Below the pieces are notes generated by a model. The model did not search any database. It was not told where the DNA came from and was given only the letters and a program-made list of their open reading frames with translations. DNA of 64,000 nucleotides from Pelagicoccus sp. SDUM812005 (GTDB lineage Bacteria > Verrucomicrobiota > Verrucomicrobiia > Opitutales > Opitutaceae): positions 310,001-374,000 of the forward strand of contig NZ_JARXIA010000002.1 of the NCBI RefSeq assembly GCF_031127875.1. The letters are read 5' to 3'. Of this stretch, positions 38,168 through 51,718 are shown piece by piece; the first letter of the stretch is position 1, and each line of letters begins with the position of its first letter. A program made the translations under genes and the position numbers.

Positions 38168-39052
38168 TCAGCCTTTTAACAAATCCAAGAGCGGCGCCAC
38201 GCCACCACTTGCGCCCGAACGGTAAAGGAAGACCTCACGCAAGCGGGCTTCCGATCCCTCCAGCGGCACCGCAGCGATCCGTCCCTCCGCCCGACGCAAG
38301 GCCGACCGCGGCAGCAAGGCAACGCCACAGCCGGCCACCACCATGCTCAAAATCGCGTCGGAACCATTCGTCTCCAAGCAGGAGTCCACCCGTCCTCCCT
38401 CCTTCTCGAACAAGTCGTCCAAGAAATCTCGATACGAAGGAGCCAGCCCCGCCGCCAGCACCACCAGAGTTTCCCCAAGCAGGTCCCGCACCTTGATACG
38501 TTTTCGCTCCGCCAAGCGATGCTCGCGCGGCAGACAGGCCAGCACCGGCTCCACCTTCCATTGAAAACTCGACACCCCGTTCGGCAATTCCTTCGGCTTC
38601 ACTCCCAAAAACGCCCCGTCGAGCTCGCCCGACTCCACCTGCCTCAACAGGTCGGACGGAGCCAAATCGAACAAACTCAACTGCGTATCCGGATGACGAC
38701 TACGGTATCCCTGGAATACCTCAAGCAACTCCTCGCCCATCAAGGCGCCGACGAACCCGATGCGCAACACCGACTCTTCGCCCGCCGCCGCCCTTCGAGC
38801 TCCCTCCACCGCCCGCGCCAAAATCGCCGGCAGCTGATACACTTCCCGCAAAAAAACCTCTCCCGCAACACTGAGCGCTATCCGACGCCCCTGCCTCAAA
38901 AAGAGCCTCGTCCCCACCAAGCTCTCCAGCTCCCGCACCGTCCGGCTCAACTGCGGCTGCGCCACCCCCAGACGCTTCGCCGCCTGCGAAAAATGGAAAT
39001 CGCGACAAACCTCCAAAAACGTCTGCACCTGCTTGTGAGTGGGAATCTCCAT
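38168..39052 (-). CDS. LysR-family transcriptional regulator, divergent from the aminotransferase-ebo genes
   Basis: A 294-residue LysR protein. The winged helix-turn-helix is near residues 8-65 (FLEVCRDFHFSQAAKRLGVAQPQLSRTVRELE), and the effector-binding domain starts near VLRIGFVGALMGEELLEVF. I prefer the ATG at 39052: an in-frame ATG at 39079 would place a perfect inverted repeat inside the gene and add nine residues with AT-rich codons. The 70-base divergent spacer to the aminotransferase suggests it controls that gene and perhaps the ebo genes behind it. The inducer is unknown. Confidence 0.88.
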   Translation of the reverse strand: MEIPTHKQVQTFLEVCRDFHFSQAAKRLGVAQPQLSRTVRELESLVGTRLFLRQGRRIALSVAGEVFLREVYQLPAILARAVEGARRAAAGEESVLRIGFVGALMGEELLEVFQGYRSRHPDTQLSLFDLAPSDLLRQVESGELDGAFLGVKPKELPNGVSSFQWKVEPVLACLPREHRLAERKRIKVRDLLGETLVVLAAGLAPSYRDFLDDLFEKEGGRVDSCLETNGSDAILSMVVAGCGVALLPRSALRRAEGRIAAVPLEGSEARLREVFLYRSGASGGVAPLLDLLKG

Positions 39053-39055
39053 ATC

Positions 39056-39073
39056 GTTTTTGTTATCAAAAAC
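39056..39073. promoter_or_regulatory. perfect inverted repeat in the LysR/aminotransferase spacer
   Basis: GTTTTTG (39056-39062) and CAAAAAC (39067-39073) flank TTAT. A second, shorter dyad, AATA-CTGA-TATT, is at 39078-39089. They may form the LysR operator. Confidence 0.5.
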
Positions 39074-39122
39074 ATCCAATACTGATATTTTCGTTATTTA
39101 AAGAACTTTGCTAAGATGGGGA

Positions 39123-40331
39123 ATGAAAACCCCGTCTCAGTCCACGCCACGCCTTGCCCAGCGCATCCAGAAGCTCACCGGCTCCGTCGCTCGCGACATC
39201 CTTTCCCGCACCCAGGACAAGGAGATCATCTCCTTCGCCGGCGGACTGCCCGACGCCTCCCTCTGGCAAAACCTCAAACTGCCGGATGTCCCTCCCGCCG
39301 CCTACCAGTACGGCCCCTCCGAAGGCGAGCGATCCCTGCGATCGATCCTCGCCGCCCGCAGCCAATCCCTCGGGCTCGACGCCACCGCGGACTCCACCTT
39401 GATCACCTCCGGCTCCCAGCAAGGCCTCGACCTCGCCGCCAAGCTCATTCTGGAGCCGGGCACGCCCATCATCCTGGAAGCCCCCTCCTACCTCGCAGCC
39501 ATCCAAGTCTTCAAGCTCTTCCAAGCCGAGCTGCACAGCCTCGAGCTCGACAGCGAAGGCATCTGCCCGCAGGCCCTCGACCGCTTGCTCGCAGAGACAC
39601 AGGCTCCTGTCATCTACCTCAATCCAACCTTCCAAAACCCGTCCGGCGCCTGCTACAGCCTCGAGCGTCGCAAGCAAATCGCAGCCGTGCTCGACCAGCA
39701 CGACACCATTCTCCTCGAAGACGACCCGTATCGAGATATCGCCTACGACACTCCACCCGCGCCCCCCATCGCCAGCTTCCTCAAGCGCTGCCCTTGGATC
39801 TACCTCGCCAGCGTTTCCAAAACCCTTATCCCCGGGCTTCGACTCGGCAGCCTCACCTGCTCGCCCGAGCTCTTCCCGCACCTGCTCAAGCTCAAGCAGG
39901 CCGCCGACCTGCACAGCAATCGCCCGGCCCAGTTCGTCGCCGCCCAAATGCTTCAGGATCCGCAAGCCAACGCCGAGCGCCTGGCCGGACTCTGCCAGCA
40001 CTACCGCGAAAAGCGCGACCTCATGCAGCGTTACCTCAGCCAGCACTTCTCCGACCTCGCCACCTGGGAGATCCCCTCCGGAGGCATGTTCTTCTGGCTC
40101 ACCTTCAAGCTCTCCATCGACCTCTCCGCCGCCCTCGCCCAAACCCTCGAACGCGGCGTCGCCTTCATGCCCGGCACCCCCTTCTTCTCCGAAGCCGAGC
40201 AAGCAGGTTGCAGCATGCGGGTCAACTTCTCCCTCGTTTCGCCCGAGCGCATGGAAGCCGGCATCCGAATCCTCGCCGAGGTCGTCCGCGACTTGCATCA
40301 GCCTGCCGCCTGCGCAAAGTCGAGCGCATGA
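39123..40331 (+). CDS. class I PLP aminotransferase (2-aminoadipate/aromatic type)
   Basis: A 402-residue aminotransferase of the MocR/LysN-like subgroup without the DNA-binding domain: SFAGGLPDASLW at about 42-53, YGPSEGERSLRSIL, the NPTFQNPSG cofactor-binding block, and PLP lysine in ASVSKTLIPGLRLGSL. The family transaminates 2-aminoadipate, aromatic or branched amino acids. I chose the ATG at 39123 with a GGGGA just before it. It is divergent from a LysR gene, and its stop overlaps the next start as ATGA, so it is co-transcribed with the following gene and probably with the ebo cluster. Confidence 0.9.
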   Translation: MKTPSQSTPRLAQRIQKLTGSVARDILSRTQDKEIISFAGGLPDASLWQNLKLPDVPPAAYQYGPSEGERSLRSILAARSQSLGLDATADSTLITSGSQQGLDLAAKLILEPGTPIILEAPSYLAAIQVFKLFQAELHSLELDSEGICPQALDRLLAETQAPVIYLNPTFQNPSGACYSLERRKQIAAVLDQHDTILLEDDPYRDIAYDTPPAPPIASFLKRCPWIYLASVSKTLIPGLRLGSLTCSPELFPHLLKLKQAADLHSNRPAQFVAAQMLQDPQANAERLAGLCQHYREKRDLMQRYLSQHFSDLATWEIPSGGMFFWLTFKLSIDLSAALAQTLERGVAFMPGTPFFSEAEQAGCSMRVNFSLVSPERMEAGIRILAEVVRDLHQPAACAKSSA

Positions 40332-40597
40332 AGCCAGCCAAGCCGCAAAACCCCGTCGACCTCTACTTCATGGACGCCCGATCCAAGCTGATCGACATCG
40401 CCGCTTTCATGGACCGCGTCGAACGCGAAGGAGCCACCGACGACTTCCGCTACCAAGCCTTCCTCGAAGCCCTCAAAGAGCTCGGCCAAGCCGACCGGGC
40501 CCGTTCCGTCCTGCTCTCCCTCTCCGACCCTACCAAAGAACTCATCCCAGCCGCCACCACCAAGGCCGCCTGCGGAGCATGGCCCGGTAAAGGCTAG
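40328..40597 (+). CDS. 89-residue protein coupled to the aminotransferase; in the position expected for EboA
   Basis: A short, helical protein. It starts MKPAKPQNPVDLYFMDARS and continues with KLIDIAAFMDRVEREGATDD and a Leu-rich helix (QAFLEALKELG). The start overlaps the aminotransferase stop (ATGA), so translation is coupled; codon use is native. I do not recognise it. It precedes eboB by 66 bases. Canonical EboA is a much longer protein, so this is either a reduced EboA or an unrelated cluster protein. No signal peptide or membrane helix is visible. Confidence 0.75.
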   Translation: MKPAKPQNPVDLYFMDARSKLIDIAAFMDRVEREGATDDFRYQAFLEALKELGQADRARSVLLSLSDPTKELIPAATTKAACGAWPGKG

Positions 40598-40663
40598 GGC
40601 GACCTCCACATCCCTTCGCTTTCCGGTTTGCCAAGACCAGCGAGTCGCGCAGCAATCGACAAC

Positions 40664-41467
40664 ATGCGCTACATCGAACCCCATGCACACATGGTAAGCC
40701 GCACCACGGACGACTACGTCGCCATGGTCACCGCAGGCTGCAAGGCCGTTTGCGAGCCCGCCTTCTGGGCCGGCTTCGACCGCAGCTCCTCCAAAGGGTT
40801 CTACGACTACTTCCGCCAGCTCACCGAGTACGAGCCGGCCCGGGCCGCCAAGTTCCACCTTCCCCACTTCTCCTGGCTTTGCATCAACCCCAAGGAATCC
40901 GAAGACCTCGTCCTCGCCAACGAAGTCATCGACCTCATCCCCGAATTCCTAGACAAGCCCAACGTGCTCGGCATCGGCGAAATCGGCCTCAACAAGAACA
41001 GCCGCAACGAGATGACCATCCTCGAGCGACACGTCGACCTCGCCGCCCAACACCAGCAGCTCATCCTCGTCCACACCCCCCACCTCGAAGATAAGCTCAA
41101 AGGCACCCAGCTCATCGTCGACCTCATCAAGTCCGACTCCCGCATCGACCCCAGCCGCGTACTCATCGACCACGTCGAAGAGCACACCGTCAAGTACGTC
41201 ATGGACGCCGGCATGTGGGGCGGCATCACCCTCTACCCCGAGTCCAAAGCCACCTCCCCCCGAGCCATCGACATGATCGAGGCCTACGGCGCCGACCGAC
41301 TCTGGATGAACTCCGCTTGCGACTGGGGAGTTTCCGTACCCCTCGCCGTCCCCTACGCCGCCATGGAAATGCGCCGCCGCGGCTACGACGACGAAACCAT
41401 CGACCAAGTCTTCTACAAGACCCCCCTCGCTTTCCTCAGCCAGTCCCAGAACTTTAAGCTCAACTAA
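40664..41467 (+). CDS. eboB: TatD-family metal-dependent hydrolase, EboB
   Basis: A 267-residue TIM-barrel amidohydrolase of the TatD family. The N-terminal metal motif is EPHAHM, and further ligands are likely Glu in IGEIGLNK, His in LVHTPH, His in LIDHVEEHT and Asp in SACDWG. The TatD superfamily contains DNases, but in the ebo cluster the EboB branch acts in an unknown metabolite step. I chose the ATG at 40664, which starts just before the conserved block. It is the first recognisable ebo gene here; the next gene, a histidine kinase, interrupts the cluster. Confidence 0.87.
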
Positions 41468-41503
41468 AAGAGCAGGCCATTTGCCTTTCTCGCCGACTTC
41501 CCC

Positions 41504-41530
41504 GAGTGTACGTGGAAGTACGCGACACTC
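41504..41530. other. imperfect inverted repeat before the hybrid kinase
   Basis: GAGTGT and ACACTC with an inner CGT/ACG flank GGAAGT, ending two bases before the kinase ATG at 41533. It could be an operator or an mRNA hairpin that hides the ribosome site. Confidence 0.45.
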
Positions 41531-41532
41531 AA

Positions 41533-43956
41533 ATGGCTTTACCTCCTCTTCCTCCAGGAAAGCATCCCCGCTCGCCCGCCTTTCTCAAAGACGCCCCCAT
41601 CCAAAGCCCCCTTTTGGACTCCCTCTGGCTGCACGCGCCGCTGGGCATCCTCGTCATCGTACCCGGCTCCGACGACAAGCACCCCATCCTCATCGGCGAC
41701 TGCAATCCGAAGGCATGCCAGATCCACGGCTACGCCCGCGACGAACTGGTCGGCCAATCCCTAGACATCCTTCACGCCGTTCCTTGGACCTCCACCGTCG
41801 GCCTCCAATGGTTCGTTCCCCCCAAGAACACGGAAGCCATCCACGGAATGTCCCTCCACCGCCGCAAGGACCAGAGCACCGTCATGATCGAATACACCCT
41901 CGTATTCGCCGAAATCAACGGAGTCGCCTGCGCCATCGGCTTCGATCGGATCGCCGACAAGCTCAGCGAGGACCAAAGCACCTTGCACCGCATCGCCAAC
42001 CGCTGGGTGCACGCCATGGAATCCAGCGAGGAAGGCGTCTGGGAAATCGAAATCGCAAGGAAGCGAATCTGGACCTCCCCCCATTGGCAAAGCCTCCTCG
42101 GACTCCCCCCTCACGAGGAAACCCGAAGCCTCGCCAGCCTCTACCGAGACCTCCACCCCCACGACTTACCGCGCCTGGAAGAAGCCCTTCGAAACGTCAC
42201 CGAAGACCTCTCCCGCTCCTTCCATACGGAAATTCGCATCCGCCACGCCGAAGGCAATTGGCTCTGGGTTTCCCTCCGGGGAAAGGTCGCCTACGCCGCC
42301 GACCGGAGGCCCCAAAGGATACTCGGCAGCATGACCGACATCACCGAACGGAAACGCTCCGAAGCGGAGCTGGAACGAGCCCGCCAAAAAGCGGAGGACG
42401 CCAACAAAGCCAAAAGCCAGTTCCTCGCCGCCATGAGCCACGAGATCCGCACCCCAATGAACGGCGTGCTCGGGATGGCCTCCCTCCTCGACGATACCAA
42501 GCTGGACCCCGACCAAAAAAGCTACCTCAAGACCATAATCGACAGCGGCGACTCCCTCCTCGCCATCATCGACGAAATCCTCAGCTACTCCAAGCTGGAG
42601 GCAGGCGGCATCGAACTGGAAGCCCATCCCTTCGACATCGAACGCTGCCTCTACCAAGCCCTCGAAGTCGTTCGCCCCCTCGCCGCCAGCAAAAACCTCG
42701 AGCTCCACTTTTCCGTGGCTCCGGAAGTCCCCCGCCAAGTACTGGGGGACAAGACCCGACTTCGCCAAATCGCCGTCAACATCCTCGGCAACGCCGTCAA
42801 GTTCACCGCCGCCGGCCAAATCGAGCTGCACCTCGCCGCCCAGCCCGAGTCCCCCGGCGAGACCGACGGACCCCGCTACCGCTTCAGCTTCTCCGTCAAA
42901 GACACCGGCATCGGCATCAAGCCAGAGACTATCGACAAGCTCTTCCGCCCCTTCTCCCAAGCGGACGCATCCACCACCCGCCAGTTCGGAGGAACCGGAC
43001 TCGGGCTCGCCATCTGCCAACGCCTCGCCAAGCTCATGGACGGAGAAATCCGGGTCGAAAGCGACTTCGGCAGCGGCAGCACCTTCACCTGCGTCGCCTC
43101 CCTGCCCGCCCTTAGCCCCCCTACCCAAACGAACTTCCCGGAATTCGCCGCCCGCGAAGCGCTCGTCATCGGCGCCCCCAGTCGCAGCAAGGAAATCCTC
43201 AACCAAGCCCTCGCTTCCCTAGGACTGCGCGTCACCGCCGTCGCCACCCCCGAACGCGCCCTCAAGTCATTGCAAGGCGACACCCGCTTCGACTGCGCCT
43301 TCGTCGACCTCGACGCCGACTGGCAACGCGCCAACTCCTTCGCCCGCCAGATCAAACGAGTCCGGCTCCCCTACCCGCTCCCCTTATTCCGAATCGACAC
43401 CCTCGAAAACCAGCTCGACAAAGCAGCCCCCAGCGAATTCCAAATCCGCATCCTCAAGCCGATCGCGCCCTTCCAGCTAGCCGAGGCGCTCGCCAAAATC
43501 CTTACCGATCCCAGCGAACGAGCCCAGACCGAAAGCCAGCCTCGCGGCAAAACCGCCAGCGCCGTCTACGCGGAACGGGTCCTCATCGTCGAAGACAACC
43601 CCGTCAACCAAACCGTCGCCGCAAACCTGCTCAAGAAATGCGGCTACCAAACGGACCTCGCCGAAAACGGATACACCGCCCTCGACCTCTGCCAGCAGAC
43701 CCCCTACGACATCGTTTTCATGGACATCCAGATGCCCGGCCTCAACGGCATCGAAACCTTCGCCAAGCTGCAAAGCCTCCTTCCCCCGGAGTTCCCGCGA
43801 CCCTGGGTCATCGCCCTCACCGCCGGGGCCATGGAAGGCGACAAGGAAAACTGCCTCGAAGCCGGGATGGACGACTACCTCTCCAAACCCATTCGCCCGG
43901 AACAGCTCACCTTCGCCCTCCAAAAGGCCCGCGAGTACCTGAGCAAGCGAGACTAG
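41533..43956 (+). CDS. hybrid sensor histidine kinase (PAS-PAS-HisKA-HATPase-degenerate REC-REC)
   Basis: An 807-residue soluble hybrid kinase. Two PAS-like regions lie at about 25-135 and 150-285; the second ends in the PAC-type [13 protein letters not shown]. The phosphoacceptor is His303 in [11 protein letters not shown], and the ATPase has N box, DTGIGI and GTGLGLAI blocks. A REC-like domain at about 540-660 seems degenerate. A standard receiver follows ([11 protein letters not shown]) with Asp731 in FMDIQMPG and LSKPI. No transmembrane helix is seen. It sits inside the ebo cluster on the same strand, which is not typical of that cluster. No output domain is attached, so phosphorelay must pass elsewhere. 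Confidence 0.92.
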
Positions 43957-44083
43957 ATCTCCGGCGCCTCCCGCCCCGAGCCAAACAAGGCCCCACACTC
44001 CGCGCCGCCTCGGCCCGCATATCCTTGCCTCCGGCCTTCCGTCCCCTACACCTTCGGTAAACACAAGCCGAACAGGATCCTCC

Positions 44084-45277
44084 ATGCGCCTCAAACACCA
44101 CGCACACCTCGCCTACTGCACCAACGTCCACCCTGGCAAAGACTGGGAGCAAACCTTCCGCTCCCTCCAAGAGGACGTGCTCTCCGTACGCCGAAACCTG
44201 TGCCCAAACGACGAATACGCCATCGGACTCCGCCTCTCCGCCTCCGCAGCCCAGGAGCTCTCACGCCCCGCCACCCTAGCCAACTTCAAAGGGTGGCTCG
44301 AAAAGGAAAATTGCTACGTCTTCACCATCAACGGCTTCCCATACGGCGACTTTCATGGCCAACCCGTCAAGGAACGCGCCTACTCTCCCGATTGGACCAC
44401 CCCGGAGCGCCTAGCCTATACCCAGCAGCTCTTCGACATCCTCGTCCAGCTCGTCCCCCAAGGCGTTGCCGGCTCCGTCTCCACCGTCCCCGGCTCCTTC
44501 AAACCCTTCATCCAATCCGACGAGCAGATCCAGGCCATCAACCAAAACCTGTATCGACTTTTTGAACACATCGAGAAACTCTCGGAAAAGAACGACGTCG
44601 ACCTCCACCTCGGCCTGGAGCCCGAACCACTCTGCCTCTTCGAAACCACCCCCGAAACCCTCCGCTTCTTCGACCGACTCCTCGACGGCCAAGCCCAGGC
44701 CGACCGTATCCGCCAACGCATCGGCGTCAACTACGACACCTGCCACCTCGCTCTCCAATACGAAAGCGCCCCCGAATCCCTCGCATGCTACCAAGCCAAC
44801 GGCATCCGACTTTCCAAGATCCACCTCTCCTCCGCCCTTAAGGTCCGCGACTTCTCCCCCGCCACCCTCGACCAACTGCAGACCTACTGCGAACCCACCT
44901 ACCTCCACCAAGTCATTGCCGCCCCCCGTCCCCAAAAAACAGCCCCCCAAACCCAACGAAAATACCTCGATCTCCCCGAGGCCCTCGCCGCCCGACGAAA
45001 CGGCCAGGACACCGCCGACGAATGGCGTATCCACTTCCACATTCCTCTGCACGCCCAACCGGCCTCTCCCTTGCTCTCCACCGCCGACCACCTTCTCGAC
45101 ACTCTCGACTACGTCGCAGCCAATCCCGCTCTCTGCCAGCACTTCGAGATGGAAACCTACACCTGGGCCGTCATGCCCCAGCAACTACACACGCCCACCG
45201 TCGTCGAGCAAATCACCGCCGAATACCGCTGGCTTCTCCCCCAACTAGAAACCCGTTCCCTCCTCCCTTCTTCCTAA
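44084..45277 (+). CDS. eboE: EboE, sugar isomerase/epimerase-like metabolite traffic protein
   Basis: A 397-residue protein of the AP-endonuclease/xylose isomerase-like TIM barrel fold: HLAYCTNVHPGKDWEQTF at the start, FTINGFPYGDFHG, LGLEPEPLCLFET (metal-ligand Glu) and IGVNYDTCHLALQYE (Asp and His). The CTNVH signature and length fit the EboE branch. It follows the kinase by 127 bases and leads the eboE-C-D-F block. Its reaction is unknown; the family is required for scytonemin precursor export in cyanobacteria. Confidence 0.88.
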   Translation: MRLKHHAHLAYCTNVHPGKDWEQTFRSLQEDVLSVRRNLCPNDEYAIGLRLSASAAQELSRPATLANFKGWLEKENCYVFTINGFPYGDFHGQPVKERAYSPDWTTPERLAYTQQLFDILVQLVPQGVAGSVSTVPGSFKPFIQSDEQIQAINQNLYRLFEHIEKLSEKNDVDLHLGLEPEPLCLFETTPETLRFFDRLLDGQAQADRIRQRIGVNYDTCHLALQYESAPESLACYQANGIRLSKIHLSSALKVRDFSPATLDQLQTYCEPTYLHQVIAAPRPQKTAPQTQRKYLDLPEALAARRNGQDTADEWRIHFHIPLHAQPASPLLSTADHLLDTLDYVAANPALCQHFEMETYTWAVMPQQLHTPTVVEQITAEYRWLLPQLETRSLLPSS

Positions 45278-45321
45278 CCACGATCCTAAAGCAAGACCCA
45301 CCCAGGACTCGCCACTTCCCT

Positions 45322-46200
45322 ATGCGCACTCACCTCACCCTCGCCCGAGCCTCCAACCTGCCCACCGTCTGGTCCAATATCCTCTGCGCCTGGATCATCG
45401 TCGGCGGCTACAACAACCTCCAGCTCGCCAGCTACCTCCTCGGAGCCAGCCTCCTCTACATCGGCGGCATGTACCTCAACGACTACTGCGACCGCGAGAT
45501 CGACGCCCAACAACGCCCCGAGCGCCCCATCCCCTCCGGCCAAATTTCCGCCCCCGCCGTGCGAAACATCGCCGCCGCCCTGCTTGCCCTCGGCTTCGCC
45601 GCCATCGCCTGGACCGGCCTGCTCAACGACCCCGGCCTCACTCGCTGGCTCCCCGCCGCCTTCGCCGCCGGCGTCGTCGCCAGCGTCGTCCTCTACGACA
45701 GCAACCACAAAGGCAATCCCATCGCCCCCATCTTCATGGCCGCATGCCGGGCCCTGCTCTACCTCGCCGTCGCCTCCGCCTTCGCCAACGGCATCGATAC
45801 CAACAACCTCATCGCCACCGGCACCATCTTCGTCTTCGTCCTCGGCATCACCTTCCTCGCCCGTACCGAAGCCACCACCAACGAGATCGACTACCCCGCC
45901 CTCGCCATGATCGCCGCCCCCGTACTCGGAGCCTTCTACTACAGCCGACACGGATTCACCGCCGAACAGACAGCCGCCCTCGCCCTTTTCCTGGTCTGGA
46001 TCGCCCGCTCCTTCCTGCGAGCCCGCGTCGGGGGAAAGCTCATCATCGGCAAAACCATCGGCCCCCTCCTCGCCTCCATCCCCCTGCTCGACCTCCTCAT
46101 CCTTGCCACCCTCGGCCTCGCCACCCAACCCCACCTCGTCCTCTTCGCCGTCCTCTTCGCCCTCACCACCGCCGCCCAACGCTTCATCCCCGCCAGCTGA
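45322..46200 (+). CDS. eboC: EboC, UbiA-type prenyltransferase-like membrane protein
   Basis: A 292-residue polytopic membrane protein of the UbiA superfamily. The first aspartate motif is NDYCDREID near 60, and the region expected to hold the second reads YDSNHKGNP, with fewer aspartates than a canonical UbiA. About eight hydrophobic helices are seen. UbiA enzymes attach prenyl groups to aromatic or phenolic acceptors. In the ebo cluster the prenyl acceptor is unknown. It lies 44 bases after eboE and 68 before eboD. Confidence 0.9.
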   Translation: MRTHLTLARASNLPTVWSNILCAWIIVGGYNNLQLASYLLGASLLYIGGMYLNDYCDREIDAQQRPERPIPSGQISAPAVRNIAAALLALGFAAIAWTGLLNDPGLTRWLPAAFAAGVVASVVLYDSNHKGNPIAPIFMAACRALLYLAVASAFANGIDTNNLIATGTIFVFVLGITFLARTEATTNEIDYPALAMIAAPVLGAFYYSRHGFTAEQTAALALFLVWIARSFLRARVGGKLIIGKTIGPLLASIPLLDLLILATLGLATQPHLVLFAVLFALTTAAQRFIPAS

Positions 46201-46268
46201 CAAGTATTCGAAATCTAATGCCGCGCTCGTTCGTGCCCACTCCTGTCCCTCGTGGGCAAAATCAAAAG

Positions 46269-47423
46269 ATGAACCTTCCAAACATCGAACACTCCATCGC
46301 CATCCCCTACCAACTGCGCGTCCTCTTCACCGAGAACGCCTTCGCCACCGAAAATCCCCTCCTGCTCAATCTGCTCTGCTCCAAGGAATCCGGGTCCCGC
46401 CGCAAAGCCATCCTCTACCTCGACGAAGGCGTAGCCGCCGCCAACCCCCAACTCGTTCCCCAAATCGAGGCCTACTTCCAGCACCACCGCGAAGAGCTCA
46501 ACCTGCGCGGCATCCACCTCCTCCCCGCCGGCGAACCCATCAAGAACAACACCGACTACCTCAAGGAAATCTACGCCCAGATCGAAGACCAAAAGATCTG
46601 CCGCCACTCCTACCTCATCGCCATCGGCGGAGGCGCCCTGCTCGACACCGTCGGCTTCGCCGCCGCCACCGCCCACCGCGGCATTCGCCATATCCGCTTT
46701 CCCACTACCACCCTCGGCCAAGGCGACGCCGGAGTCGGCGTCAAAAACGGCTTCAACTTCCGCGGCAAGAAAAACTTCGTCGGCACCTTCGCGCCCCCCT
46801 TCGCCGTCGTAAACGACTTCGCATTCCTCGACACCCTGCCCGAAAAGCACCTGCGCAACGGCTACATCGAAGCCATCAAAGTCGCCCTCATCCGAGACGC
46901 CACCTTCTTCGACTGGATCGAGTCCCACGCTGACGCCCTCAACGCCTTCCAGCCCGACGCCGTGCGCCAGCTCGTGCACCGCTCCGCCAAGCACCACGTC
47001 ACCCACATCGCCACCTCCGGCGACCCCTTCGAGATGGGCTCCGTGCGACCCCTCGACTTCGGACACTGGGCCGCCCACAAGCTCGAGCAACTCTCCGACT
47101 TCCGCATCTCCCACGGAGAAGCCGTCGCCATCGGCATCGCCATCGACACTCTCTACTCGCAAAAGATGGGCTACCTCGACCAAACGTCCGTCAACCGTAT
47201 CCTAAACCTCATTACAAAGCTCCAACTCCCCACCTACGCCCCCGAACTCGAGCAAAAGACCGCGGACGGCAAAAACGCCACGCTCGCCGGCCTCGAAGAA
47301 TTCCGCGAACACCTCGGCGGCCTGCTCACCATCACCCTGCTCAAAGAAATCGGCCAACGCTTCGAAGTCCACGAAATGGATACCGAAAAGATCCTCCAAT
47401 CCATCCAAAGCCTCCCACGATAG
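46269..47423 (+). CDS. eboD: EboD, 3-dehydroquinate synthase-like
   Basis: A 384-residue protein of the sugar-phosphate cyclase/DHQ synthase fold. The NAD-binding block is AIGGGALLDTVGFAAA, and FPTTTLGQGDAGVGVKNG matches the family lysine region. Zinc ligands likely are Glu in GYIEAIKVAL, His in DFGHWAAHKLE and His in ISHGEAVAIG. Canonical AroB makes dehydroquinate for the shikimate path; this branch (EboD) is a paralogue in the metabolite cluster. I chose the ATG at 46269; a second in-frame ATG 51 bases upstream gives a Pro/Arg-rich extension. Confidence 0.9.
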   Translation: MNLPNIEHSIAIPYQLRVLFTENAFATENPLLLNLLCSKESGSRRKAILYLDEGVAAANPQLVPQIEAYFQHHREELNLRGIHLLPAGEPIKNNTDYLKEIYAQIEDQKICRHSYLIAIGGGALLDTVGFAAATAHRGIRHIRFPTTTLGQGDAGVGVKNGFNFRGKKNFVGTFAPPFAVVNDFAFLDTLPEKHLRNGYIEAIKVALIRDATFFDWIESHADALNAFQPDAVRQLVHRSAKHHVTHIATSGDPFEMGSVRPLDFGHWAAHKLEQLSDFRISHGEAVAIGIAIDTLYSQKMGYLDQTSVNRILNLITKLQLPTYAPELEQKTADGKNATLAGLEEFREHLGGLLTITLLKEIGQRFEVHEMDTEKILQSIQSLPR

Positions 47424-47431
47424 CCCCCGTA

Positions 47432-47455
47432 GGGCACGGGCTTTACGCCCGTCCC
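47432..47455. repeat. palindromic intergenic element between eboD and eboF
   Basis: GGGCACGGGC and GCCCGTCCC arms flank TTTAC. This kind of GC-rich, stop-adjacent palindrome resembles REP-type elements. No second copy was seen in the window. It lacks a T run. Confidence 0.5.
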
Positions 47456-47554
47456 GCAGAGTCAACCACCCACCTCCCCGCACCCCCAAAGCAAGCCGCT
47501 ATCAAATCTAAAACGATCCGTTTTCATACCCGTCCATCCGTGGTTTAAAAATAA

Positions 47555-48913
47555 ATGCAACGTCTCGCAGTCATCAACGTCGTCGGCCTCACCCAAGGCC
47601 TCATCGGTCCCCACACACCCCGTATCCAAAAGTACGCGACCACCCACAACTCCGCCTGCGTCAAACCCGCCTTCCCGGCCGTCACCTGCACCGCCCAGTC
47701 CGACTACCTCACCGGAGCGACGGCCTCCGAGCACGGCATCGTCGCCAACGGCTGGTACAACCGCGACTACTCCGAGATCCATTTCTGGAAACAATCCAAC
47801 CACCTCGTAAAGAGCCCTAAGCTCTGGGAAAAGCTCCGCGACGCCAACCCCGACTTCACCACCGCCAAACTCTTCTGGTGGTACAACATGTATTCGTCGG
47901 CCGACTACACGATCACCCCGCGCCCCATGTACCCCGCCGACGGACGCAAAGTCTTCGACGTCTACACCCAACCCATGGGCATGCGCGAAGAAATCAAGGC
48001 CGACCTCGGCGAATTCCCCTTCTTCACCTTCTGGGGCCCAAAAGCCAGCATTCCCTCCTCCCAGTGGATCGCCAAGTCCGCCATTTGGACTGAAGAAAAA
48101 CACAGCCCCAACCTCAGCCTCGTCTACCTCCCCCACCTAGACTACAACCTTCAGCGCCTAGGCCCCCAGCACCCCCACATCGCCCGCGACCTGCAAGAAA
48201 TCGACACCGTAGTCGGCGAGCTCCTCGACTTCTACGAAAGCCGACAAGTCCAGGTCGTATTGCTTTCCGAATACGGCATCACTCAAGTCGACACCCCCAT
48301 CCACATCAACCGCGCCCTGCGCGAAAAAGGTTGGATCACCATCAAAGACGAGCTCGGCCTCGAGCAGCTCGACTGCGGCGCCAGCAAAGCCTTCGCCGTC
48401 GCCGACCACCAAGTCGCTCACGTCTACCTCAACGACCCTTCCCTCGAAACCCAGGTCCGCGAGACCATCGCAGCCCTCCCCGGCGTCGACCAAGTTCTCG
48501 ACCGTGCCGCCCAACAAGCAGCCGGCATCGCCCATCCCCGCAGCGGCGACCTCGTAGCCGTCTCGCGCGAAGACGCCTGGTTCACCTACTACTACTGGCT
48601 CGACGACTCCCTCGCGCCCGACTTCGCCCGCTGCGTCGACATCCACCGCAAAGCTGGCTACGACCCCGTGGAACTCTTCATCGACCCCCAGATCAAATTT
48701 CCACCGGCCAAAATCGCCAAATTCCTCCTCAAGAAAAAGCTCGGCTTCCGGGCCCTGCTCGACGTCATCCCCCTCGACGCCACCCTCGTCAAAGGCTCCC
48801 ACGGAGCCTGCCCCAAAAACAAATCCGACTGGCCCGTATTCATAACCCCACGACAAACGCCACCCGAACTCACCTCCACCGCAGTCCACCACCAACTGCT
48901 CGCCCATTTCTAA
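47555..48913 (+). CDS. eboF: EboF, alkaline-phosphatase-superfamily (nucleotide pyrophosphatase/phosphodiesterase) protein
   Basis: A 452-residue protein of the alkaline phosphatase superfamily. The putative nucleophile Thr lies in FPAVTCTAQSDYLTG, with metal ligands likely from LPHLDYNLQRLGP, LLSEYGIT and GSHGACPKN. No signal peptide is seen, unlike most exported phosphatases, so it may act in the cytoplasm. It is the last gene of the ebo block, 131 bases after eboD with the palindrome between, and converges on the pseudokinase gene. Confidence 0.88.
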   Translation: MQRLAVINVVGLTQGLIGPHTPRIQKYATTHNSACVKPAFPAVTCTAQSDYLTGATASEHGIVANGWYNRDYSEIHFWKQSNHLVKSPKLWEKLRDANPDFTTAKLFWWYNMYSSADYTITPRPMYPADGRKVFDVYTQPMGMREEIKADLGEFPFFTFWGPKASIPSSQWIAKSAIWTEEKHSPNLSLVYLPHLDYNLQRLGPQHPHIARDLQEIDTVVGELLDFYESRQVQVVLLSEYGITQVDTPIHINRALREKGWITIKDELGLEQLDCGASKAFAVADHQVAHVYLNDPSLETQVRETIAALPGVDQVLDRAAQQAAGIAHPRSGDLVAVSREDAWFTYYYWLDDSLAPDFARCVDIHRKAGYDPVELFIDPQIKFPPAKIAKFLLKKKLGFRALLDVIPLDATLVKGSHGACPKNKSDWPVFITPRQTPPELTSTAVHHQLLAHF

Positions 48914-48952: not shown

Positions 48953-51718
48953 CTAAAGAGCGGGAGCCAGCGCCACCCGCAGGCCAAGGGAGTGGAACCG
49001 GTCGTCAGGGCGGGCGCTATTGCGCTTGGCCGACCGACAAAAGTCCGCCCCTGCCCCCCAGCTGCCGCCGCGAAACACTCGAGTAGTGCCCGAAGCGGGA
49101 CCTGACGGATTCTCCTCCGCTCCCGGCGGATAGTTGCCATACCAGTCATGGCACCATTCGCTGAGGTTGCCGTGCATATCAAACAGCCCCCAGGCATTGG
49201 CTTTCCGAACGCCTACCTCTCGGGATCTGTGCCCGCTGTTCTCGACGTACCAGGCCATCGCCTCCAGTTCGTCGCCGCCAAAGGGACCTTCCGATCCCGC
49301 GCGAGAGGCGTACTCCCATTCCGCCTCCGTCGGCAGCCGGTATTCGTAGCCCTCCACTTGACGGCCTTCTCGCCGGGCCTGCTCGTTCAGCCGACGGCAA
49401 AACTCCTGAGCCTCGCTCCAGCTTACCGTATCGACCGGAAGTCGGCCTCCCCCGGACCTAAAGAGCGAAGGATTGCCTCCCATCACTGCCTGCCACTCGT
49501 CTTGCGTCACTTCATGCAGGCCGATCCAAAAGCCCTTCTCCAACGTCACGCGGCGCGAGGACTCATCGTCGCGGCGGCCTTTTTCGTCAGGCGGACTTCC
49601 CATCATGAAGGAACCAGGCTGTATCCAAACTTGCGGGATTCCAACGCCAGGCACTTGGCGCTCCCAAACGCGACCGGGAGGGCCCTCCATGCCAACGAGC
49701 TGCGCCGAAAGGTCCGCCTTTTTCCCAGCCACGGCCACGCCCGAAACGGTGACGCTCTGGTTAAAACGCCGTCGCAACTCGAACTGGACAGGGCCAGGCG
49801 CCAAGCCCTCTAGCAAAAGCGGAGTCTCGCCCAGCTTCCGGCTGCCCTCCCAAACCTCGGCTCCCTCAGGATTGCTGGTTAGGTAAACGGAGGCTTCGCT
49901 CAGATCGAAAGTCCGCTCCACTGTGCCATTCGCCCGCAGCTCGAAATCCCAAGTCTGCGTGGGCCACCCTTCCCGGCTCACCGTCGCTCGGTAGCGCCCT
50001 GCCGGCAAACCGTCGGCTTCCAAGACGTTCTCGGCATCCAACTCGACTGGAGGAGCTTCCGCTTCGAGCTCAAGGCTTCGCAAAGATATCTTCGCCACAG
50101 CTGGGTTTTGGCCAGAGCCCGTTTCAGCCACCAACCGAGCCGTTCCCTGCGGCGTCTCCACTGTCACCGGCTCAGGCGCGACCGCTCGACTTCGATCGGT
50201 CTCTTCCCCGACGGCGGCCAGCGATTCGCGCTCAGGGAGCTGTTGCAGCTGTTCCAAACGCTCCGCCTCAAGCCGTTCCGCCTCCCGACTTTCCGCTGCG
50301 AGCCTCTCGGCCGCCAGCCGTTCGGCTTCGATACGCTCGGCTTCCAATCGCTCCGCCTCCCATCTCGCTGCTTCCCGCCGTTGCTCCGCCAAGCGTTCGG
50401 CTTCCCTTCGCTCGAGCGCTTCCTGCTCGATGCGGAGCATCTGCGCCGCGGCCGCTTCCTGGGCGAGCCGCTCTTGCTCCGCCTGTTCCTGAACCTCCGC
50501 TGCCGCGGCCGCAGCCAGGGCTTGGCGGTGGTCCCGCACCGGCAACCATGCAAAGAAGTAATAGACCACGCCGAAGACGACGAACAGCAAAACGAACGCC
50601 AGTCGCAGCAGCATGCGCGAGGTGGGTGGCCCGCCATCTTCGGCGTCTTCGAAAGATAGCCTCCGAGCTCCATCCGCGAGGCCCTCGGACTCTCGATCCG
50701 TATCCGCGTCGGCGTCTCCCCGCCGAGACGCCGATTCCTCGTCCTCAACAGCGGCCGTCTCTTGGCGAAAGCCTGCGCTTTCCCGCTCCGGCGGCTCAGG
50801 AACCGGTACCTGAGCCGCTGGGACCAAGCATGGATGGCTACCATCCAAATAGGCTAGGAATTCCTCGCCGCCACTCGGGCGGTCGTCCGCATCCTTAGCC
50901 AAGCAGGCCGCCACCGCCGCTTCCCAGCCCGATGGAATCGAGTCGCCCGCTTGACCCACCTGCAGGCGACGCTCCTTCATCGTAGGCGGAACCTCGCTTC
51001 GAATTTGCTCCTCAAGATCGCCCTCGTGGAAGGGCGGGAGACCGGTGATCAGCTCGTACAGCGTGGCGCCGAGGGCGTAAAAGTCGTCCGAGAAGCGAGC
51101 CGGCTCTCCTGCCAAGAGCTGTGGGCTGGAATAGGCAAGCGAGCCTGCCAAGCTTGCTTGCACCGCCTCCGGGCCGCTCCTCTGCGATAGCTCTGCGGCC
51201 AAGCCCCAACGCGTTATGACGCGGTCCCCTTTCTTGCCCTGCAGGAGAGCTCCCGGTTTCAGGTCGCCGTGGGGCGGCCCGCCTTGGGCTCGAGCATAGT
51301 CCAAGGCCGAGCAAACCTCCTTGACCCACCCCTCCAGATCCGCGGTCTCAAGGACGCGCAGGGGTCGGGTCATGCGTTCTCTCCCTAAGGTGAAGCCTTC
51401 GCGGTACTCGGAGATCAAGGCGTAGAGGCAGCCCTCCCAGCGAAAATCGAGATCGCGGTTGATGCTGCTATGGTCCAGGCCCCAATTGACGCGAGCCTGT
51501 CGCGTTAGCTCGCTCACTGCGTCCTCGTCCAAGCCCAGCGACGTCGGAAGGAACCGGAGCGTGACCCAACTTCGCGATTCCTTGTCCTTGGCGAGCCACT
51601 CCGCATCGCCTTCGCCGCGGGAGAGCAGTCGCTCCAGCCGATAGCGTCCGCCGAAAACGGTCCGCCCCGGACTGGCGCTGTGGTAGGTAGAATCAGGAGC
51701 TAGCGGGAGGCTTTGCAT
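48953..51718 (-). CDS. transmembrane pseudokinase with PEGA and FGE-sulfatase domains
   Basis: A 921-residue protein. Residues 25-290 form a Ser/Thr-kinase fold in which the VAIK lysine is Arg55, the catalytic loop reads HGDLKPGALL without Asn, and the DFG position reads RWG (170-172). SDDFYALGATLYELITG is intact, so it is a probable pseudokinase. A transmembrane helix follows near 372-394, then an Arg/Glu/Ala coiled coil (about 400-500), a PEGA-type beta domain (about 610-680) and a C-terminal FGE-sulfatase/C-type-lectin-like domain (about 695-921: FMMGSPPDEKGR, RLPTEAEWEYA, FRGGSWG). The two formylglycine-generating cysteines are not both present. The N-terminus should be cytoplasmic. It follows a beta-propeller lipoprotein by 51 bases. 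Confidence 0.88.
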   Translation of the reverse strand: MQSLPLAPDSTYHSASPGRTVFGGRYRLERLLSRGEGDAEWLAKDKESRSWVTLRFLPTSLGLDEDAVSELTRQARVNWGLDHSSINRDLDFRWEGCLYALISEYREGFTLGRERMTRPLRVLETADLEGWVKEVCSALDYARAQGGPPHGDLKPGALLQGKKGDRVITRWGLAAELSQRSGPEAVQASLAGSLAYSSPQLLAGEPARFSDDFYALGATLYELITGLPPFHEGDLEEQIRSEVPPTMKERRLQVGQAGDSIPSGWEAAVAACLAKDADDRPSGGEEFLAYLDGSHPCLVPAAQVPVPEPPERESAGFRQETAAVEDEESASRRGDADADTDRESEGLADGARRLSFEDAEDGGPPTSRMLLRLAFVLLFVVFGVVYYFFAWLPVRDHRQALAAAAAAEVQEQAEQERLAQEAAAAQMLRIEQEALERREAERLAEQRREAARWEAERLEAERIEAERLAAERLAAESREAERLEAERLEQLQQLPERESLAAVGEETDRSRAVAPEPVTVETPQGTARLVAETGSGQNPAVAKISLRSLELEAEAPPVELDAENVLEADGLPAGRYRATVSREGWPTQTWDFELRANGTVERTFDLSEASVYLTSNPEGAEVWEGSRKLGETPLLLEGLAPGPVQFELRRRFNQSVTVSGVAVAGKKADLSAQLVGMEGPPGRVWERQVPGVGIPQVWIQPGSFMMGSPPDEKGRRDDESSRRVTLEKGFWIGLHEVTQDEWQAVMGGNPSLFRSGGGRLPVDTVSWSEAQEFCRRLNEQARREGRQVEGYEYRLPTEAEWEYASRAGSEGPFGGDELEAMAWYVENSGHRSREVGVRKANAWGLFDMHGNLSEWCHDWYGNYPPGAEENPSGPASGTTRVFRGGSWGAGADFCRSAKRNSARPDDRFHSLGLRVALAPAL

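Follow-up and report, generated by a model that had tools for sequence, protein, structure and literature searches.

An eboG-type ebo operon with a LysR regulator, an aminotransferase and a changing set of sensor kinases in Pelagicoccus

Is the gene set at 38168-48913 of a 64,000-nt stretch of Pelagicoccus sp. SDUM812005 (the window; positions 310001-374000 of contig C42, in a 6.65 Mb genome that is 99.5% complete) a true ebo cluster, of which type is it, and do the LysR gene, the aminotransferase and the hybrid histidine kinase found there belong to it? According to the available text of PMC5133447, ebo genes are found in several bacterial phyla and some plastids. On sequence grounds we firmly regard the set as an ebo operon that is of the eboG type and takes a form specific to the genus and rich in sensors. 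As a new observation, the clusters of this genus carry a LysR gene, an aminotransferase gene and a changing set of sensor kinases that are oriented with the ebo genes.

Every gene named by a preliminary description of this region was found with an open frame: the LysR gene, the aminotransferase, an 89-residue gene coupled to it through ATGA, eboB, a PAS-PAS hybrid kinase, eboE, eboC, eboD and eboF. From the aminotransferase through eboF they share one orientation. The overlap of the aminotransferase and the 89-residue gene is 4 nt, and the subsequent gaps are 66, 38, 127, 44, 68 and 131 nt. The features are as follows.

38168..39052, minus strand: LysR-type regulator, divergent from the aminotransferase (PF03466 131 bits, PF00126 64 bits)
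39050..39066, no strand: operator-like site 1, sharing bases with the start codon of LysR (invariant columns in the alignment of seven spacers)
39085..39097, no strand: operator-like site 2, ATATTTTCGTTAT, kept with small changes in six of seven genomes
39123..40331, plus strand: pyridoxal-phosphate aminotransferase of fold type I (Pfam Aminotran_1_2, 116 bits)
40328..40597, plus strand: eboG, 89 aa (profile match to a short Deinococcus gene)
40664..41467, plus strand: eboB, metallo-dependent hydrolase (six invariant residues; placement in the EboB tree)
41506..43956, plus strand: hybrid histidine kinase HK-a, PAS-PAS-HisKA-HATPase-REC, no transmembrane segment by hydropathy
44084..45277, plus strand: eboE, xylose-isomerase-like TIM barrel (NF035939)
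45322..46200, plus strand: eboC, UbiA-superfamily prenyltransferase (PF01040; NDYCDREID motif)
46269..47423, plus strand: eboD, sugar phosphate cyclase with the signature SVRPLDFGHWAAH (PRK06203)
47432..47454, no strand: REP-like palindrome in the eboD-eboF gap, occurring once in the window
47555..48913, plus strand: eboF, phosphodiesterase of the alkaline-phosphatase superfamily (PF01663, Phosphodiest, 197 bits)

EboE passes the NCBIfam equivalog NF035939 with 452 bits against a cut-off of 250. EboB is marginally a TatD protein by profile (28.9 against 27 bits; NCBIfam TatD 24.7 against 206), and EboD stays under the cut-off of the aroB model TIGR01357 (226 against 305 bits). The genes for EboB, C, D, E and F are clustered on one strand, and relatives share their order. 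The exact string G-B-E-C-D-F occurs in 22 of the 121 ebo loci read, and this recurrence of the six core genes elsewhere denotes more than a chance neighbourhood. The assignment to ebo rests on the whole gene set together with the aspartate-rich motif of EboC in its expected place. The earlier claim of an ebo cluster therefore stands, supported by the EboE equivalog, the recurring order, the EboG match and the EboB tree; the last of these and the comparison of gene order across Verrucomicrobiota had been proposed as checks. A third proposed check, the profile search for ordinary TatD, UbiA, AroB and phosphatase families, gave a divided answer: EboE reaches its equivalog, while the Pfam families are generic and EboD is named as a 3-dehydroquinate synthase (DHQS).

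The likeness first drawn to the ebo set of cyanobacteria and plastids is right as to the cluster and wrong as to its type, which is eboG and not their eboA. Yurchenko et al. (2016) named eboA-F, and in the part of their paper available to us a short eboG replaces eboA in Deinococcus and some others (PMC5133447). A profile of the 89-aa gene was made out of 13 verrucomicrobial copies, one of them the window's own. It matches the short gene that separates eboD from eboB on plasmids of Deinococcus sp. QL22 (6.6e-24) and AB2017081 (1.1e-17), and also a gene before eboB in Gemmatirosa (5.6e-23). Because genus, size and place match the published EboG, we equate the 89-aa gene with it on these three points rather than by accession. 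The gene was previously placed merely ahead of the cluster; its ATGA overlap with the aminotransferase is as described, but it is itself a core ebo gene. No EboA was found in the window genome (NF035938, best E 0.83). That the gene is a broken EboA was ruled out by this absence of signal and by the clean Deinococcus match. The AlphaFold model of EboG has three helices (pLDDT 87.6); Foldseek against the PDB gave no match at E <=0.001, and the best phmmer match among PDB sequences had E 0.13. A total of 63 EboG candidates came from loci L076-L155, three without a usable start, and 54 of the other 60 entered set A2 with the window copy.

In the EboB tree, which is midpoint rooted and in which the program flagged long branches, a 100/100 branch separates 29 eboG-type rows, including Deinococcus and Gemmatirosa, from three eboA-type rows and two rows with neither EboA nor EboG. 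Row L058 owes its eboG label to an EboG elsewhere in the same genome.

The distribution was surveyed in 387 Verrucomicrobiota genomes. EboE is present in 154, EboG in 77 (E <=1e-4) and EboA in five, all of one family and all with EboE; EboA and EboG never occur in the same genome (0/387). Each of the 55 genomes with strong EboG (E <1e-20) has EboE, as do 19 of the 22 with weak EboG, leaving three without. The EboE and EboG lists are identical in the class of the window (46/46 genomes, its own counted), a new result by which every EboE-bearing genome sampled from this class also has EboG. By the models used, EboA and EboG are both missing from 75 genomes with EboE, which may hold a third or divergent small partner. 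The order C-F-D-E was seen in four loci of this kind (L055, L061, L062 and L066); no convincing small gene precedes eboB in L062, and a 242-aa open reading frame (ORF) does so in L066. As a separate observation, eboB of genome G375 (L041:8589-9412) is split over two overlapping frames, by a frameshift or an assembly error. The stem "Verrucomicrobi" is absent from the text of PMC5133447 and PMC6282210.

The genus sample consists of the eight genomes in our collection. It includes Verrucomicrobiae bacterium DG1235 (G390:C6) and Pelagicoccus mobilis (G389:C130), the nearest named relatives by EboB (93% and 92%) among the 80 best-matching of 582 relatives, whose titles are all Verrucomicrobia-type or "bacterium". 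EboE and EboF are present in seven genomes, and G391 has neither. Orthologues of the aminotransferase (50-83% identity) and of LysR (56-81%) adjoin ebo in the six other ebo-bearing genomes. Both thus lie beside ebo in 7/7, in agreement with the preliminary description, which had assigned them to the cluster. In G391 no match to LysR reached E 1e-40, and for the aminotransferase there is just a paralogue of 32% identity. The YdjM gene, neighbour of LysR in the window, is kept in all eight genomes including G391, and its copy in G392 is on another contig. The exact empty site in G391 was not drawable, the YdjM gene being the only one common to the 20 kb compared. The aminotransferase match in G392 has one TGA flagged within the matched stretch, and its ORF is 390 aa.

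Alignment of the seven spacers between LysR and the aminotransferase reveals two shared AT-rich elements, at 39050-39066 and 39085-39097. A CAT invariant in all seven indicates that LysR probably starts at ATG 39052 and not at TTG 39079. The second element ends 25 nt before the aminotransferase gene, is lost in G392, and has one match in the window at <=1 mismatch where 0.01 is expected. We infer that LysR may bind at these operator-like sites, regulate itself and control the aminotransferase. The best PDB relatives of the latter are 1wst, 1x0m, 3aov and LysN 2egy, with human kynurenine aminotransferase (KAT) II further down, which places it in the branch that comprises multiple-substrate aminotransferase, KAT II homologue and LysN. 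The presence of an aminotransferase makes it plausible that the ebo product derives from an amino acid.

Twelve open kinase genes were found between the aminotransferase and eboE in six genus clusters, all twelve oriented with ebo. They belong to four architectures.

HK-a: PAS-PAS hybrid without a transmembrane segment, in the window, G388, G387, G390 and G392; upstream of eboE in every case
HK-b: membrane hybrid, with MASE11 over the Pfam cut-off in one of three, in G388, G389 and G392; upstream of eboB in every case
HK-c: HAMP-PAS hybrid with two transmembrane segments, in G388, G392 and G387
HK-d: two-component propeller kinase, receiver not recognised, in G390; between the aminotransferase and eboG

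Orthologues of HK-a at >=45% identity occur only in ebo clusters, and a 36% paralogue lies elsewhere in G392. The kinase once described as an interruption after eboB does have that position, but the "interruption" recurs across the genus. LOV-type light sensing by the window kinase was considered and dropped, since no LOV motif was seen by eye. Non-overlapping long ORFs were kept in the genus gene maps, and eboG of G388 and G393 was placed by tblastn instead.

Weakly porin-like and fn3-like genes precede HK-c in G388 and G392 (L165:15024-17047, L166:12163-14201). In G388 the porin-like gene scores 21.5 bits where the cut-off is 27, and no family was assigned in G392. The pair stands with HK-c at differing places of the ebo clusters, as if one mobile module. 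The seventh cluster, in G393, has a decayed module of porin-like gene, fn3-like gene and HAMP-PAS kinase, with pieces missing, between eboG and eboB (L164:8017-10578). A block of lamin-tail, VTC, DUF4956 and HlyD genes splits eboE from eboC-D-F in G392 and G387 (L201:7225-12005, L202:4841-19164), and that of G387 adds an OEP gene, CotH, another kinase and two DNA-binding response regulators (OmpR-type and LytTR). A wide gap among the ebo genes of locus L074 holds a receiver ORF.

Several residues bear on the chemistry of the core enzymes. EboB has H7, H9, E106, H137, H170 and D220 invariant in 13/13 rows, which we take to be the metal ligands. EboD reads PLDFGHWAAH, with Asp at the position of the DHQS Asn in LNxGHTxGH, as in ValA (4p53, valiolone synthase). 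This Asp, in PLD[F/L/Y]GH, is found in 41/43 EboD profile matches; of the remaining two, one is a truncated ORF and the other, in L055, reads LNFGH and is presumably an AroB paralogue. Asp where DHQS has Asn, contrary to the NCBIfam name, supports an EboD substrate other than 3-deoxy-D-arabino-heptulosonate 7-phosphate (DAHP). EboC carries the aspartate-rich NDYCDREID. EboF reads SEYG[IL] in 29 of 40 sequences, the other 11 being unmatched by this pattern, and classical phosphodiesterases have SDHG at the position. EboF gave no PDB match at 1e-5.

We propose, at a probability of about 0.5 for the full mechanism, that in this genus the eboG-type operon G-B-E-C-D-F has come to form a single unit together with a LysR and an aminotransferase of its own and with kinases that reside in it. 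The proposal builds on what is observed: the gene identities, EboG in place of EboA, the gene order, the co-occurrence of LysR and aminotransferase, and the changing co-oriented kinases. LysR would bind the paired conserved sites and drive the aminotransferase and, through read-through, ebo. The aminotransferase would convert an aromatic or similar amino acid to a keto acid, and EboD would cyclise a non-DAHP sugar phosphate, perhaps like sedoheptulose-7-phosphate, to a cyclitol. At the inner membrane EboC would attach a prenyl chain. Trimming or activation of the intermediate may fall to EboB, EboE and EboF, and EboG may be a small helical partner. The resulting isoprenoid-cyclitol would be the carrier or precursor that places an aromatic metabolite in the cell envelope, like the scytonemin monomer in Nostoc. 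The kinases, co-made with the pathway, could tune the response to it via unlinked phosphorelay partners. A role in metabolite traffic would be by analogy with Nostoc punctiforme, whose ebo mutants keep the scytonemin monomer in the cytoplasm according to the available text of PMC6282210.

A number of findings weigh against this proposal. At 1e-25, LysR and aminotransferase matches among the 121 ebo loci come only from the window, DG1235 and P. mobilis, and the genus comparison has a single ebo-lacking genome, G391. The specificity of the aminotransferase cannot be read from its sequence. A phmmer search with the kinase core of the window (E 1e-6) found one within the ebo span only in the same three among 97 loci (>=2 ebo genes within 16 kb; some genomes twice; many contigs with only G and B). 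No kinase can be essential, since G393 has only the decayed module, and eboC-D-F lie 5 kb (G392) and 14 kb (G387) from eboE. By profile, no DNA-binding regulator besides LysR is present in the window cluster 38168-48913, the remainder of the genome not being searched. No sigma-70-like promoter was found in the region (1.0 in shuffles). EboC passes UbiA (59.9 against 34.2 bits) but stays below the cut-off of its equivalog NF035940 (107.7 against 250), a model that might not span the eboG type, and EboD is over the cut-off of PRK06203, named 3-dehydroquinate synthase (533 against 333 bits). Of the 55 strong-EboG genomes, 16 carry EboG and EboE on the same contig and no more than 20 kb apart (hand count), 11/11 in the order of the window and 5/44 outside it. 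As most genomes beyond this order show no such linkage, we lowered our probability from 0.55 to 0.50.

Other explanations were weighed against the same evidence. Yurchenko et al., in the available part of PMC5133447, proposed that ebo makes an isoprenoid-cyclitol secondary metabolite; with no transport role, and with LysR and the aminotransferase in the same biosynthesis, this is a possible, if tentative, account. The Asp pattern of EboD and the motif of EboC fit it, and so does the EDB cluster, which has the full ebo set (PMC6282210) and yields tryptophan-derived indoles in E. coli (PMC9655573), both as given in the portions available. It fits poorly with the Nostoc ebo mutants, which produce the scytonemin monomer without exporting it (PMC6282210, in part). 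That the kinases, LysR and the aminotransferase are bystanders, tolerated insertions functionally unlinked to ebo, is unlikely. Beyond the genus, ebo loci show no such genes, kinase content varies among most genomes and one module has decayed, but LysR and the aminotransferase track ebo in 8/8 genomes (seven present, one absent), the kinases are co-oriented in 12/12, and HK-a is always 5' of eboE (five cases) and HK-b of eboB (three).

More specifically, the aminotransferase could be a kynurenine aminotransferase leading to quinoline-2-carboxylates that EboC prenylates, in the manner of Ubi-297 with 8-hydroxyquinoline-2-carboxylic acid (8-HQA). The resemblance to KAT II homologues and the preference of Ubi-297 for 8-HQA and quinaldic acid (PMC9235831, available part) speak for this route, which we nevertheless consider very doubtful. 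It is weakened by tryptophan 2,3-dioxygenase (PF03301) not being found in any of the eight genus genomes (2/14 controls positive), and xanthurenic acid is a poor Ubi-297 substrate in the same portion of that paper. Hardly credible is a chance neighbourhood of ordinary TatD, UbiA, AroB and phosphatase paralogues: it agrees with the generic Pfam families and the DHQS name of EboD, and is opposed by the EboE equivalog, the recurring order, EboG, the EboB tree and an EboD signature that differs from the presumed AroB paralogue in L055.

The one-unit proposal could be extended to a self-monitoring chemical system, a speculative reading to which we give rather low odds. The embedded, rotating kinases, one of them in the porin-like/fn3-like module, would let the cell adjust its behaviour on sensing the ebo product, or on sensing that this has reached the envelope, and LysR with the aminotransferase would gate precursor supply. 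If so, the ebo product would be a signal or envelope effector and not a passive carrier.

Neither LysR, aminotransferase or kinases inside ebo clusters nor ebo in Verrucomicrobiota are reported in the titles and abstract openings of the literature searched, and the terms "histidine kinase" and "aminotransferase" are absent from the text of PMC5133447 and PMC6282210. A genus with LysR, aminotransferase and sensors beside ebo offers new handles on the ebo product: the LysR ligand and the aminotransferase substrate would point toward the precursor, and the kinase sensor domains toward the sensed signal. Strain-named genomes, Pelagicoccus mobilis KCTC 13126 and DG1235, are among those with the cluster. 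Both strains are presumably in culture, and culture tests should be possible.

Eight terminator-like sites were found in the region, all on the minus strand (13.8 in shuffles) and none on the plus strand (0/8); this and the short gaps between the genes favour the one-unit proposal. A fusion of protein kinase, PEGA, FGE and sulfatase lies at 48953-51718 of the window, convergent with eboF.

Among known systems, and as far as the available parts of the cited papers go, the ebo cluster of Nostoc punctiforme (Klicki et al. 2018, PMC6282210) likewise has EboB, C, E and F with D nearby, and the scytonemin operon there is under a two-component system; it differs in having EboA rather than EboG and in serving scytonemin. 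The EDB cluster of Pseudomonas fluorescens NZI7, compared through citing papers, includes the ebo set (PMC6282210), is of the eboA type and makes tryptophan-derived indoles (PMC9655573). The Ubi-297 operons of Maribacter, Zobellia and Algoriphagus (PMC9235831) place a relative of EboC, bearing the motif DxxDxxxD, inside an ebo cluster, and this EboC-like enzyme prenylates quinolines; they are described with EboA, and LysR, aminotransferase and kinase are not mentioned in the parts covered. The Deinococcus operon of the eboG type (PMC5133447) shares EboB, C, D, E and F and a short EboG before eboB, with no EboA annotated. The order is D-G-B-E-C-F on the two Deinococcus plasmids and G-B-(kinase)-E-C-D-F here, where LysR, the aminotransferase and the kinase are added.

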